From a virus: 34,406 nt of DNA. A program made the position numbers and the translations under genes. Numbering within the stretch: the stretch's first letter is position 1; every line of letters starts with the position of its first letter. Positions 2,766 to 6,408 of this stretch are shown here, piece by piece. The notes below the pieces were generated by a model. That model was given only the letters and a program-made list of their open reading frames with translations. It was not told the DNA's origin and ran no database searches. Location: the IMG/VR virus record IMGVR_UViG_3300029397_000001, positions 1 through 34,406 of that record. One strand, given 5' to 3'.

Positions 2766-3287
2766 ATGACCACCACCATTCCCGCCGGCTGGAAGCTTCT
2801 GGCGAAGAAGACCTGCTACGTGCTGATGCATGACGGAGCCGTGATTGCCACGCTGGCCGGGCCGGAGTCGAAGGAGAACGCCGCCATCATCGCGCGCATG
2901 CTCGCCCCCCCTTCGTGCCCGACCTGCAACGACCAGGGCGCAGTCGGCAACATCCTGACCGCCCAGCCTTGCCCCGACTGCGCCGCCCCTGGCGTATCCA
3001 CGATGGAGGATGCGCAGGCCGGCGAAACCCTGGCGACCTCGATTTTCGGCGAGCGCATCGGCAAGATGCTGGATGGCAACGCTCCCGCTGCTGGCGATGA
3101 GCTGGATGCGGCGCGGTATCGCTGGCTGCGCGATGAAAGCTTGGGCGTTCCGGACGGCATGCGCGAGATCTATGTAATCCAGCAGCGATTGCCGCACACC
3201 GAGGGCACGGACACGGAGCTTTTCGACACCGCCCTTGATGCTGCTGTGGACGCCGCCATTGCAGCCCAACGTAAGGGGGATGCGTGA
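2766..3287 (+). CDS. Unknown protein with DnaJ-like zinc-finger cysteines
   Basis: This 173-residue protein starts at an ATG one base after the previous stop, with AAGGAG just upstream. Residues about 50-75 contain a CPTC...CPDC pair in the spacing of a small treble or DnaJ-type zinc knuckle. The C-terminal part, DAARYRWLRDES followed by a hydrophobic stretch and DTALDAAVDAAI, is a module I associate with many unrelated small phage proteins. Function is unknown; a zinc-stabilised small regulator or adaptor would fit. Its TGA overlaps the ATG of the methyltransferase gene. Confidence 0.75.
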   Translation: MTTTIPAGWKLLAKKTCYVLMHDGAVIATLAGPESKENAAIIARMLAPPSCPTCNDQGAVGNILTAQPCPDCAAPGVSTMEDAQAGETLATSIFGERIGKMLDGNAPAAGDELDAARYRWLRDESLGVPDGMREIYVIQQRLPHTEGTDTELFDTALDAAVDAAIAAQRKGDA

Positions 3288-5002
3288 TGGCCAGGGCCGT
3301 CGCCTACTACAACGAGATCGACCCTTACGCCGCCGACTGGCTCCGCAACCTGATCGCGGCCGGCCACATTGCCCCCGGCGACGTGGACGAACGCAGCATA
3401 GAGGATGTACACCCCGATGACCTTCGACCCTACACCCAGTGCCATTTCTTCGCCGGCATCGGCGTCTGGTCCTATGCCCTTCGCCGCGCCGGCTGGCCTG
3501 ACGATCGACCTGTTTGGACCGGTTCCTGCCCCTGCCAACCTTTCTCCGCGGCAGGCAAAGGAACTGCGTTTGATGACGAGCGGCACCTCTGGCCGGCCTG
3601 GCACTGGCTCATCCAAGAGTGCCGCCCTCCAGTCGTCTTTGGTGAGCAGGTTGCAAGCAAGGACGCAGAGCCTTGGCTCGACCTTGTTTCGACTGACCTG
3701 GAAGCCCTGGCCTTTGTCGTCGCGGCGTGCGCTTTCCCGTCTGCGAGCGTCGGTGCTCCGCACATCCGCGATCGAACCTACTTCGTGGCCCACGCCGCAG
3801 GCCAGGGATTTCAAGGGCGCCAACTCGGCCGGCAACGAGCTGGATCACAACAGCCGGCCGTTGAACGAAGTGGCCGTATTGGCCGGTTGGAGAACACCCA
3901 ACACGGTGGACTCGAAGCTGGGCAACCGGGACGGCGACGGGCAGGTGCAGTTGTGCCACCAAGCGCTGCTGGCGGGCTGGGGAACGCCGCTGACCAACCA
4001 TGCCAACGGGACACCGGAGGCGTTTCTCGAGAGAAAGCGTCGGAGCATGGAGCGCGGGTCGGCATCGATGGGAGTCAGCCTGACCGACCTGGACATGCAG
4101 GTGCAAGCGTGGTGCGCGGGATGGCCGACACCGATGGCAGGCACGCCGGCGCAGAACGGAAACAACGCGGCGGGGAACAACGACAGCAGCCGGAGGACAG
4201 TGGAACTGGCGACCTGGCCAACGCCACGGGCGGCGGACGGCGAGAAGAACGTGCGGACGCTGGACGGCGCCATGTCGGAGATCTCCCGCAAGGGCTCGCC
4301 GCAGGATCTAGCGCAGGCGGCAGCGATCTGCGGCCCGGCCCGGTTAACGGCTTCTGGCGAGCTGCTGATTGGCTGCTCTGCCGGGATGGAAAGTGGCGGC
4401 CAGTTGAACCCGGCTATGAGCAGATGGTTGATGGGTCTGCCGGCAGCCTGGGACGAGTGCGCGCCGGCGACATCGAAGAAATCCAGGAGGAAGTGAATGC
4501 TTGGGAGATCAGACATCAAGCCGACGCCGGGGAAGCCCTGCGCCGAGTGCGGCTCGATCTTCGAGCGCAAGCGCTTTGCGAGCGGGAGGCTGGAAGATTT
4601 TCTGGCATTCAGTCGCCGGCGGTACTGCTCGCTTTCCTGCGCCAACTCACAGAGCAAGGGTGGCGATTCGCGGACGCGCTGGCATGCGAGGGCGCAGCAG
4701 CACTGCAAATCGTCGTGCGAGTCCTGCGGTTCGATCCGAGCGCTGCACGTACACCACTGCGACGAGAACTGGAGGAACAACTCGCCGGACAACCTGCAGA
4801 CCCTCTGCAAGAGTTGTCATCGATCCTGGCACATCACGCAGCGAAATGCTGGGGTGACGCCTGCCGGGAGAAAGCCGGCGCTGCAAGTTTCCCCCTCGCT
4901 CATGGGGCTCCCGCCCGAGTGGGACGCCTGCGCGCCTACGGCAACGCGATCAACGCGCAGCAAGCGCAAATCTTCATCGAAGAAAGCATGAGGTGCATAT
5001 GA
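3287..5002 (+). CDS. C5 cytosine DNA methyltransferase with an in-frame insertion
   Basis: The N-terminal 170 residues carry the C5 methyltransferase core: FFAGIG (motif I, SAM binding, about 54-59), GSCPCQPFSAAG with catalytic Cys about 83 (motif IV), FGEQV in place of the usual ENV (motif VI) and HIRDRTYFVA (motif VIII). The end carries RVGRLRAYGNAI plus AQIFIE (motifs IX/X). Between lies a Gly/Arg/Gln-rich segment where target recognition normally sits, with recurring LxNA and ADTDG units. The frame also runs open through about 157 extra residues (roughly 4420-4890), exactly where an HNH gene sits in another frame. The protein, 571 residues, probably methylates phage DNA against host restriction. 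Whether it is active with the insertion is unknown. GTG at 3284 is an alternative start, but ATG 3287 is better spaced from AAGGGGG. Confidence 0.8.
   Translation: MARAVAYYNEIDPYAADWLRNLIAAGHIAPGDVDERSIEDVHPDDLRPYTQCHFFAGIGVWSYALRRAGWPDDRPVWTGSCPCQPFSAAGKGTAFDDERHLWPAWHWLIQECRPPVVFGEQVASKDAEPWLDLVSTDLEALAFVVAACAFPSASVGAPHIRDRTYFVAHAAGQGFQGRQLGRQRAGSQQPAVERSGRIGRLENTQHGGLEAGQPGRRRAGAVVPPSAAGGLGNAADQPCQRDTGGVSREKASEHGARVGIDGSQPDRPGHAGASVVRGMADTDGRHAGAERKQRGGEQRQQPEDSGTGDLANATGGGRREERADAGRRHVGDLPQGLAAGSSAGGSDLRPGPVNGFWRAADWLLCRDGKWRPVEPGYEQMVDGSAGSLGRVRAGDIEEIQEEVNAWEIRHQADAGEALRRVRLDLRAQALCEREAGRFSGIQSPAVLLAFLRQLTEQGWRFADALACEGAAALQIVVRVLRFDPSAARTPLRRELEEQLAGQPADPLQELSSILAHHAAKCWGDACREKAGAASFPLAHGAPARVGRLRAYGNAINAQQAQIFIEESMRCI
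3405..4496 (+). CDS. WPTP-repeat protein overlapping the methyltransferase gene in another frame
   Basis: This 363-residue ORF lies wholly inside the methyltransferase gene in a different frame, yet does not look like a shadow. It has an ordered N-terminal block (IDLFGPVPAPANLSPRQAKE, then SRLQARTQSLGSTLFRLTWK), recurring W-x-TP units (SWPTPQARDFKG, GWRTPN, GWGTP, GWPTP, TWPTPRAADGEKN) and a tidy end, GGQLNPAMSRWLMGLPAAWD. From memory, phage proteins of this type are widely annotated beside cytosine methyltransferases. Function is unknown. The first ATG is used, with ATG 3417 as an alternative. The TGA stop is followed at once by the ATG of the HNH gene in the same frame. It may instead be a conserved by-product of methyltransferase coding; I judge it more likely real. 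Confidence 0.6.
   Translation: MYTPMTFDPTPSAISSPASASGPMPFAAPAGLTIDLFGPVPAPANLSPRQAKELRLMTSGTSGRPGTGSSKSAALQSSLVSRLQARTQSLGSTLFRLTWKPWPLSSRRALSRLRASVLRTSAIEPTSWPTPQARDFKGANSAGNELDHNSRPLNEVAVLAGWRTPNTVDSKLGNRDGDGQVQLCHQALLAGWGTPLTNHANGTPEAFLERKRRSMERGSASMGVSLTDLDMQVQAWCAGWPTPMAGTPAQNGNNAAGNNDSSRRTVELATWPTPRAADGEKNVRTLDGAMSEISRKGSPQDLAQAAAICGPARLTASGELLIGCSAGMESGGQLNPAMSRWLMGLPAAWDECAPATSKKSRRK
4419..4496 (+). repeat. Diverged direct repeat of the methyltransferase 3' end, copy 1
   Basis: This stretch aligns with the true end of the methyltransferase gene, displaced by 471 bases (157 codons). ATGGGTCTGCCG here matches ATGGGGCTCCCG at 4902, and GGGACGAGTGCGCGCC matches GGGACGCCTGCGCGCC. Both readings are echoed: LMGLPAAWDECAP against LMGLPPEWDACAP in one frame, GRVRAG against GRLRAY in the other. 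The copies have diverged, so the event is not recent or the second copy came in with the HNH gene. Confidence 0.7.
4497..4991 (+). CDS. HNH endonuclease inserted in the methyltransferase locus
   Basis: A 164-residue HNH protein. An N-terminal zinc knuckle (CAEC at 15-18 and YCSLSCAN at 43-50) precedes the nuclease: CESCGSIRALHVHHCDENW with HH at 86-87, NNSPDNLQTLC with Asn at 95 and 99, and KSCH with Cys 104, Cys 107 and His 108. Such free-standing HNH enzymes nick or cut DNA and can spread as homing endonucleases. The last 30 residues, beginning SLMGLPPEWDACAPT, are not part of the nuclease: they repeat the C-terminus of the WPTP ORF just upstream (RWLMGLPAAWDECAP). The gene therefore appears to have inserted while duplicating, or carrying its own copy of, the 3' end of its target. 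Confidence 0.85.
   Translation: MLGRSDIKPTPGKPCAECGSIFERKRFASGRLEDFLAFSRRRYCSLSCANSQSKGGDSRTRWHARAQQHCKSSCESCGSIRALHVHHCDENWRNNSPDNLQTLCKSCHRSWHITQRNAGVTPAGRKPALQVSPSLMGLPPEWDACAPTATRSTRSKRKSSSKKA
4890..5002 (+). repeat. Direct repeat, copy 2 (intact methyltransferase 3' end)
   Basis: This is the second copy, which encodes motif IX/X of the methyltransferase (GRLRAYGNAINAQQAQIFIE) in one frame and the last 30 residues of the HNH protein in the other. It retains the conserved GNA motif that copy 1 has lost. Confidence 0.65.
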
Positions 5003-6408
5003 CCCAACAAGACGACATCACCCAGCGCGTGCTGACGGCAGAGCATCATCTGAACGAGCTGATGCGCCTCACGCAACCCTGGCCGAACGCCACGATACCC
5101 TGCGCAACCGTGCGCTCGCATGTTGAACAGGCGCTGTCCAAGCTGCGCGCCCCTCTAGCCGACGAGCGGGCGTCGGACCAGACTGCGCCGGGGCGTCAGT
5201 ACCACATCCTCAAGACCGACCCGGAGGTTTTCCAGGCGGTCCTGTCCGGCGCAAAGACGTTCGAAATCCGCTTGAACGACCGAGGCTATGCCGTTGGCGA
5301 CGTGCTGGGCCTGCGCGAAACGAAGCACACCGGCGCGGAAATGCGGGCCGGCGCGCCGTTGGTTTACACCGGGCGCGAGTGCCAGCGCTTCGTCAGCCAT
5401 GTGCTGACGGGCTACGGGCTTGCGGATGGCTGGTGCTGCCTGTCGTTCCGGCTGCCCCACGCTGGCGGGGAAAGCGCCCCTGTAGCCGATGAGACGACGC
5501 TCCAGGTTTGGGCTGAACGCTTCCCGGAGATATCCGACATGGGCCGCCTGCGCGATGCGTGGAACGAAGCCAGAGCAAGCGCCCCGGTAGCCGACGAACG
5601 GGAATTGCGCTCGGCAGCGCAAGCCTTTTACGACGCGTCGAAAACTGTTGTGCGCTTCGCTGTGGAATCGTTGGATGATCGGGATGCGCTTGTTGCCGCA
5701 AACGTTCGCCTGCGCGCCGCCCTGGCAAGCGCCCCTGTAGCCGGGGCCGACCGTGACGCCGATGAACGCGCAGTAATGACGCCTGCTAAGGCCGCGTATG
5801 TGGAGCATTTCGGCCATGCCGCAGGGTGGCTTTCCTATAAGGGAAGCTGGTTCATCGAAGGGTTTAAGGCGGGACAGAAAAGCGCCCCTGTAGCAGGGGA
5901 GGCGCAGCCGGTGGCTCTGGTCGAAGTGTCGGTACCACATCTGCGCTCTATCTCCGTCAAGATCATTCCGGACGCGCCAATGCCGAATGTCGGCGACCTG
6001 CTCTATGCCACGCCCCAGGCCAGCGCCGAGCCACAGCAATACACACACGCCGAAGTGTTTGGGCCGATGGAAAGCGCTTGGAATGCAGCCCTGGATCAAG
6101 CCGCGGCTGTTGCCAAGCGCATCAGCGACAAATACGCCTTCGGCCATTATGGCAACGAGACGGACACGGCGGACGAGATCGAGCGGGAGATTCTGGCCCT
6201 CAAGCAGCCCCAGGCGGACAAGGACGACGGCCAGCAGCGCGCCGTTGATGTGGACCTGTACGGGTTGGCAATTGAATGCGGCGCCGTCATCAGCACCGAT
6301 GACCTGTCCTGGGCGTTTTCATACAGCGCCATGCGCAATTTCTGCATCCGCGTCCGCGCCGCCCTTTCTGCCACCCAGGCCGAACAAGGAGAGCGGGATG
6401 CGAAGTGA
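4999..6408 (+). CDS. Repeat-built protein with DUF3850/ASCH-like domain
   Basis: A GTG at 4993 is possible, but ATG 4999 has GAGG five bases upstream and overlaps the methyltransferase stop. The product is 469 residues. Residues about 65-155 match the DUF3850 (ASCH-like) fold: YHILKTDPEVFQAVLSGAKT, FEIRLNDRGYAVGDVL, VYTGREC and LTGYGLADGW; ASCH folds are thought to bind RNA or modified nucleotides. The rest is a chain of unrelated segments joined by near-identical SAPVADE or SAPVAGE linkers, each encoded by a ~20-base repeat, with further pieces such as GDLLYATPQAS and YGLAIECGAVIS. It looks assembled from cassettes. No catalytic motif is evident in the later segments. Confidence 0.8.
   Translation: MTQQDDITQRVLTAEHHLNELMRLTQPWPNATIPCATVRSHVEQALSKLRAPLADERASDQTAPGRQYHILKTDPEVFQAVLSGAKTFEIRLNDRGYAVGDVLGLRETKHTGAEMRAGAPLVYTGRECQRFVSHVLTGYGLADGWCCLSFRLPHAGGESAPVADETTLQVWAERFPEISDMGRLRDAWNEARASAPVADERELRSAAQAFYDASKTVVRFAVESLDDRDALVAANVRLRAALASAPVAGADRDADERAVMTPAKAAYVEHFGHAAGWLSYKGSWFIEGFKAGQKSAPVAGEAQPVALVEVSVPHLRSISVKIIPDAPMPNVGDLLYATPQASAEPQQYTHAEVFGPMESAWNAALDQAAAVAKRISDKYAFGHYGNETDTADEIEREILALKQPQADKDDGQQRAVDVDLYGLAIECGAVISTDDLSWAFSYSAMRNFCIRVRAALSATQAEQGERDAK
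5473..5900 (+). repeat. Four ~20-bp direct repeats encoding SAPVA linkers
   Basis: AGCGCCCCTGTAGCCGATGA occurs at 5473 and recurs with few changes at 5578, 5728 and 5881; a weaker copy (GCGCCCCTCTAGCCGACGAG) begins near 5148. Spacings are 105, 150 and 153 bases, all multiples of three, so exchange between copies would keep the frame. Confidence 0.85.

Follow-up and report, generated by a model that had tools for sequence, protein, structure and literature searches.

The window (the whole analysed stretch of 34,406 nucleotides, positions 1 to 34,406 of IMG/VR virus record IMGVR_UViG_3300029397_000001) carries a long open reading frame, frame A, with two further ORFs lying end to end inside it in the +1 frame, frame B. 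Frame A is open over 3284-5002 and may start at GTG 3284 (572 aa) or ATG 3287 (571 aa), overlapping the upstream ORF in a TGATG at 3285-3289. An earlier note set the dual-coding locus at 3405-5002; frame B is indeed open from 3405, but ends at 4496 (363 aa), and a separate HNH-type ORF follows at a TGA-ATG junction (4494-4499). We refer to the two main products as alpha (frame A) and beta (frame B). The features of the locus are as follows, the motifs and repeat units having been read from the sequence:

3287-5002, plus strand: alpha, proposed catalytic subunit of a cytosine-C5 methyltransferase, 571 aa (phrog_363 and Pfam DNA_methylase)
3449-3463, plus strand: motif I of alpha, FAGIG
3530-3547, plus strand: motif IV of alpha, PCQPFS, with the catalytic Cys
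3557-3563, plus strand: Shine-Dalgarno-like AAAGGAA ahead of beta
3573-4496, plus strand: beta, proposed specificity subunit, 307 aa, in the +1 frame and nested in alpha (phrog_1008, phrog_31772)
3644-3652, plus strand: motif VI of alpha, with EQV replacing ENV
3767-3775, plus strand: motif VIII of alpha, RxR (RDR)
3786-3797, plus strand: first WPTP unit of beta
3825-4175, plus strand: "ghost" linker of alpha, open but without amino-acid selection (from omega, the stop test and the structure model)
4122-4133, plus strand: WPTP unit of beta, WPTPMAGTPAQNGNNAAGNNDSSR, the most conserved of the units
4215-4226, plus strand: WPTP unit of beta, TGGCCAACGCCA, which reads LANA in frame A
4401-4460, plus strand: motif-IX-like end of beta, QLNPAMSRWLMGLPAAWDEC, which aligns with LAPAFSEWMMGWPAGW of single-chain C5 methyltransferases
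4415-4885, plus strand: HNH cassette, inserted relative to the close relative L002 (from the alignment with L002)
4497-4991, plus strand: HNH endonuclease ORF, 164 aa, in frame B directly 3' of the beta stop and nested in alpha
4940-4954, plus strand: motif X of alpha, GNAIN

Alpha matches the DNA methyltransferase family phrog_363 (E 1.6e-83) and scores 44 bits, above the cutoff, against Pfam DNA_methylase. As the earlier note had recognized, the cytosine-C5 motifs I, IV (PCQ), VI (ENV-like), VIII and X all lie in frame A, and they are invariant or nearly so: F, A, G and the second G of motif I across 39 alpha homologues, and motif IV, the GEQV of motif VI, both arginines of motif VIII and the GNA of motif X in our alpha alignment (A2). 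In an AlphaFold2 model of alpha from L002, residues 1-172 are largely ordered (core mostly at pLDDT 80-96), residues from about 180 to 332 have no regular structure (linker pLDDT 29-39), and the C-terminal helix right after motif X is ordered (pLDDT 82-92). The top Foldseek matches to this model are to M.HhaI (E 1.5e-6, probability 1.00), and alpha is accordingly modeled with a C5-methyltransferase fold like that of M.HhaI. The order of its motifs looks permuted, with a motif II/III-like YYNEIDPYAA...GDVDERS ahead of FAGIG and motif IV directly after it (residues 8-88, 3305-3547). The alignment of alpha begins at profile position 23 of TIGR00675 and 65 of the Pfam profile, hhalign leaves out motif I, and separate-segment matches are weak. 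The alpha of Paenibacillus phage Rani shows the canonical order.

Beta matches phrog_1008 (E 2.7e-39) and phrog_31772 (E 2.1e-44), both named DNA methyltransferase, and a sequence search of the PDB with beta gave no match. Its structure model is poor (mean pLDDT 56), and therefore its fold could not be matched to any known target-recognition domain. Residues 14-61 (3612-3755) form a strongly conserved helix and beta-hairpin module (SxxLQSSLxSRL...GSTLYxLTWKxW, pLDDT about 74-82) that has no counterpart in the single-chain enzymes examined, and that is perhaps a subunit interface. These single-chain enzymes, the actinophage C5 methyltransferases represented by Mycobacterium phage ShiLan gp70 and its relatives, display motifs I-VIII, LLPTP repeats, WMMGWPxGW and motif X, like the pair described here, but in one polypeptide and one frame, without nesting. 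When compared by hhalign, alpha matches their motif I-VIII half (E 1.8e-19), beta matches the part after motif VIII up to WMMGWPxGW (E 3.5e-7), and there is no match between alpha and beta. The beta match comes partly from proline/glycine-rich repeats, and the motif-IX-like end aligns too. Each of the two proteins thus resembles a different half of one enzyme, a relationship that the earlier note did not contain, any more than it did the later start of beta and the nested HNH gene.

The comparison of per-frame substitution rates proposed in that note was carried out with four-class substitution counts on 27-28 independent pairs, the DNA being aligned blind to frame and positions counted from an anchor at 3575. 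It revealed selection on both frames, divided by region. Before beta (-200 to -120), frame A alone is constrained (omega_A 0.23, omega_B 1.18). Between +50 and +200 purifying selection acts on A and B (both are constrained over about 3575-3775), and over most of the dual region omega_A is 0.17-0.72 and omega_B 0.44-0.52. In the variable region (+250 to +600, about 3825-4175) frame B alone is constrained, with omega_A at 1.0-2.4 and omega_B at 0.24-0.33, while near the end (+700 to +800) both are again constrained (0.51 each). With omega_A at about 1 or above and omega_B low, the ghost in the variable region is the methyltransferase frame and not the WPTP frame.

Stop codons point the same way. 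When synonymous codons were shuffled with the beta protein held fixed, 259 frame-A stops were expected across 67 loci over the variable region and the 3' end of beta, and none was observed; with the alpha protein held fixed, no frame-B stop was observed against 69 expected, while the upstream control had 134 against 93 expected. The loci of this test had been pre-selected by overlap length (700 nt or more), a threshold that 75/79 pass. Frame-B NNT codons never precede codons beginning with AA, AG or GA, and stops are also absent from N15, K1ind2, Rani (45% GC), a T4-like phage (43% GC) and a Lacticaseibacillus phage. Since frame A has no stops where its residues are unselected, alpha must be read through a stretch in which its own amino acids seem irrelevant, and the frame is apparently kept open through the variable region in order to reach motif X. 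Both frames are open beyond chance, conserved and under purifying selection over parts of the overlap, as defines an overprinted pair.

The bias of searching with beta was to be removed by a retrieval with the N-terminus of alpha only, and beta is present in +1 in every one of the 73 distinct loci so obtained; homologues with a second frame broken by stops, which would have spoken against dual coding, were thus absent from this set. The beta-first retrieval took in IMG/VR contigs and 79 bacterial-genome loci, most of them from Proteobacteria. Here beta is nested in +1 in 154/158 loci, in each of which the alpha ORF covers 95% or more of beta and itself closes with motif X. Neither count involved the 700-nt filter. 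The two sets are not fully independent, as several IMG/VR contigs are shared between the searches (e.g., L003 and L254). Among the IMG/VR loci with both parts, neither frame is interrupted in 75/79 over a length of 700 nt or more. The four exceptions among the 158 consist of a single stop in alpha (two loci), a frameshift (one) and both parts in one phase (one). L247 (Klebsiella michiganensis) has the N-terminal part of alpha and the C-terminal part of beta in phase within a single ORF, and its motif X lies in a different frame, possibly through a sequencing error or a frameshift that fused the two. In L059, alpha and beta are both cut early and a beta-like 3' end lies about 2.7 kb downstream, as if the pair had been broken by a larger insertion. 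In tblastn searches the frame-B protein retrieved 192 phage records, aligned through the variable region, and the alignments of frame A were mostly limited to the first ~170 residues. The arrangement occurs in hundreds of phages, including N15, epsilon15, BcepC6B and many prophages, and also in low-GC carriers (phages of Paenibacillus and Lacticaseibacillus, and a T4-like coliphage).

Taken with the stop counts, the 73/73 loci put dual coding far beyond chance, and the second protein that had been suspected at this locus is strongly supported. The other option offered in the earlier note, that repeated coding in the methyltransferase creates frame B as a ghost, had matters the wrong way round. 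Frame B does lack selection before about 3455, as that option would have it, but the selection on the WPTP frame in the variable region, the beta family aligning across phages where alpha does not, the stop tests and the presence of beta in every alpha-first locus refute it, and we regard it as extremely improbable.

The start of beta is less sharply defined. A conserved-looking start had been noted, and a start at 3405 is unsupported, omega_B being 1.18 at -200 to -120 (in frame B as far as about 3455). Immediately ahead of alpha's conserved (D/E)xRH, most loci have TTG, followed in many by ATG, and AAAGGA often precedes them; beta probably starts at ATG 3573, and possibly at TTG 3570 instead. 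Codon usage in alpha is skewed around this site: the Gly codon at the Shine-Dalgarno-like position is GGA in 41/57 loci with Gly (versus 166/614 other Gly codons), and the Phe codon creating TTG is TTT in 56/58 loci with Phe (versus 42/274 elsewhere in upstream alpha). The TTT preference may stem from the start codon itself or from selection on a beta residue, and frame-B coding is supported either way. Some loci have no ATG, TTG or GTG at the proposed position, so that the start may vary, and with omega_B at 0.71 (-120 to -60) and 0.79 (-6 to +50) it is not sharply located by selection.

The WPTP repeats noticed in frame B are present (at 3786, 4122 and 4215), together with WRTP and WGTP variants. 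A recurring word, TGGCCAACGCC, had been proposed to give WPTP in one frame and LANA in the other. It has one exact copy in the locus and four copies with at most two mismatches (3786, 3978, 4122 and 4215), and such loose matches are common across the window (61 versus 22 expected). The repeat therefore consists of loosely spelled WPTP codons, while LANA occurs only once.

The HNH ORF matches the HNH endonuclease family phrog_1271 (E 4.5e-14), with Pfam HNH and HNH_3 below cutoff. Frame A has no stop across it, where 4.3 are expected (P(open) 0.004). An HNH-type ORF in frame B right after the beta stop is found in nine further loci (L018, L019, L023, L024, L025, L041, L060, L061 and L062), and frame A is open through it in all ten, with 4-7 stops expected in each (P(open) at most 0.004); as L018/L024 and L023/L060 are near-duplicates, the independent cases are fewer than ten. 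The HNH frame is the selected one here (omega 0.24-0.43, versus 0.46-1.09 for A). Close relatives without the HNH gene exist, L002 among them, and in the alignment with L002 a stretch coding for LMGLPxxWDxCAP lies near both ends of the inserted 4415-4885. This is as expected if a putatively mobile endonuclease gene had inserted at a conserved site and given beta a new end.

These observations also bear on the idea that only beta is translated past motif VIII, the downstream part of alpha and its motif X being by-products of beta codons. The omega_A of about 1 in the variable region is what this idea predicts, but omega_A drops to about 0.5 near the 3' end, the GNA of motif X is invariant, frame A stays open through the HNH genes of all ten loci, and the avoidance of NNT before AA, AG and GA in frame B has no place in it; we consider it very unlikely.

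We propose instead that the locus encodes a two-subunit cytosine-C5 methyltransferase with the specificity subunit inside the gene of the catalytic subunit, working like M.EcoHK31I, a reading that we hold to be highly probable. SAM binding and catalysis (motifs I-VIII) would be the part of alpha, which also brings in motif X at its C-terminal end, and beta would contribute the target-recognition domain (WPTP repeats) together with the motif-IX-like segment. Ribosomes that start at 3287 would stay in frame A across the DNA encoding beta, and the stretch of alpha made there would be an unstructured linker, arbitrary in sequence, leading up to the helix of motif X. Beta would come from a second initiation near 3573, where AAAGGAA is followed by TTG ATG. 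We infer that beta is translated and assembles with alpha into a working heterodimeric enzyme that would methylate DNA. Phage orphan methyltransferases can serve in the evasion of host restriction, and this enzyme probably methylates the phage's own DNA against it. It also seems likely that this is the general organization of a widespread phage enzyme, its subunits nested, the middle of alpha a sequence-neutral by-product of beta codons that is open only to reach motif X, and HNH genes inserted with the frame kept open. With the linker open only for that purpose, target specificity could evolve while the linker takes any sequence.

Beta might otherwise be a real but separate protein, such as a regulator or an anti-restriction factor, that overprints the methyltransferase. 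Its N-terminal helix-hairpin module, foreign to the single-chain enzymes examined, would suit such a role, but alpha itself contains no conserved region for target recognition (omega_A about 1, disordered) and beta matches the part that alpha is missing, which makes a separate protein quite improbable. We find slightly more room, though still little, for a single chain made by programmed frameshifting, in which ribosomes would leave A for B by a +1 shift once past motif VIII, and perhaps return for motif X. In relatives of actinophage type the split comes directly behind motif VIII, the remainder lying in +1 with an overlap of only about 190 nt, and L247 has both parts in one phase, as this would allow. 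Frameshifting, however, needs neither an open frame A in the variable region nor a frame B upstream of motif VIII, whereas stops are missing from both and omega_B is 0.44-0.52 in the latter, and many loci have a start with a Shine-Dalgarno-like site ahead of beta.

Turning to known systems, a C5 methyltransferase in two polypeptides is already known, and nested pairs are annotated in a few phages. M.EcoHK31I and M.EaeI are such two-polypeptide enzymes, and the small ORF of M.EcoHK31I lies within the large one in another frame. In M.EcoHK31I, the larger polypeptide carries motifs I-VIII and X and the smaller one motif IX, the target-recognition domain being predicted in the larger subunit (PMC3404938). 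By this published description, our pair shares the distribution of motifs, with I-VIII and X on the large chain and IX on the small one, but selection places its target-recognition region in the smaller subunit (neutral in alpha, selected in beta); it differs also in the nested HNH gene, and no adjoining restriction enzyme is annotated in three plasmid-borne relatives, at least two of them phage-like. M.AquI is split after motif VIII, in the variable region, into alpha and beta (PMC3404938), and its motif X is in the smaller subunit, whereas here motif X is kept in alpha and reached through beta-coding DNA. An M.AquI-like split just after motif VIII, with a short +1 overlap, is seen in six actinophage-type loci (L119, L121, L124, L131, L114 and L115), where PTP repeats and motifs IX and X are all in the +1 frame; these loci are apparently intermediates between the single-chain and the nested forms.

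The PHROG library holds alpha (phrog_363) and beta (phrog_1008/phrog_31772) as separate families, their nested partnership being unstated in its output. Depositors annotated nested pairs in K1ind2 (ORF28/29) and Paenibacillus phage Rani (gp50/gp51, "g50 Internal gene"), and these records do not describe the pairing as subunits of one enzyme. In the literature consulted, we found no paper on this nested family in phages, and no description of the generality of the arrangement, the divided selection, the neutral alpha linker or the nested HNH genes. Only one of the two proteins is annotated in most of the database records of carriers that we inspected, so that these annotations probably lack half of the enzyme, and a recoded gene for the annotated protein alone should not be expected to give a working product. 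With its many long same-strand overlaps, in which selection has been mapped by region, the family constitutes a large natural dataset, and it gives a direct test of a specificity domain evolving inside another gene. Downstream, alpha is coupled through an ATGA overlap (4999-5002) to an ORF at 4999-6408 with a DUF3850/ASCH-like domain (Pfam DUF3850, E 1.7e-21).
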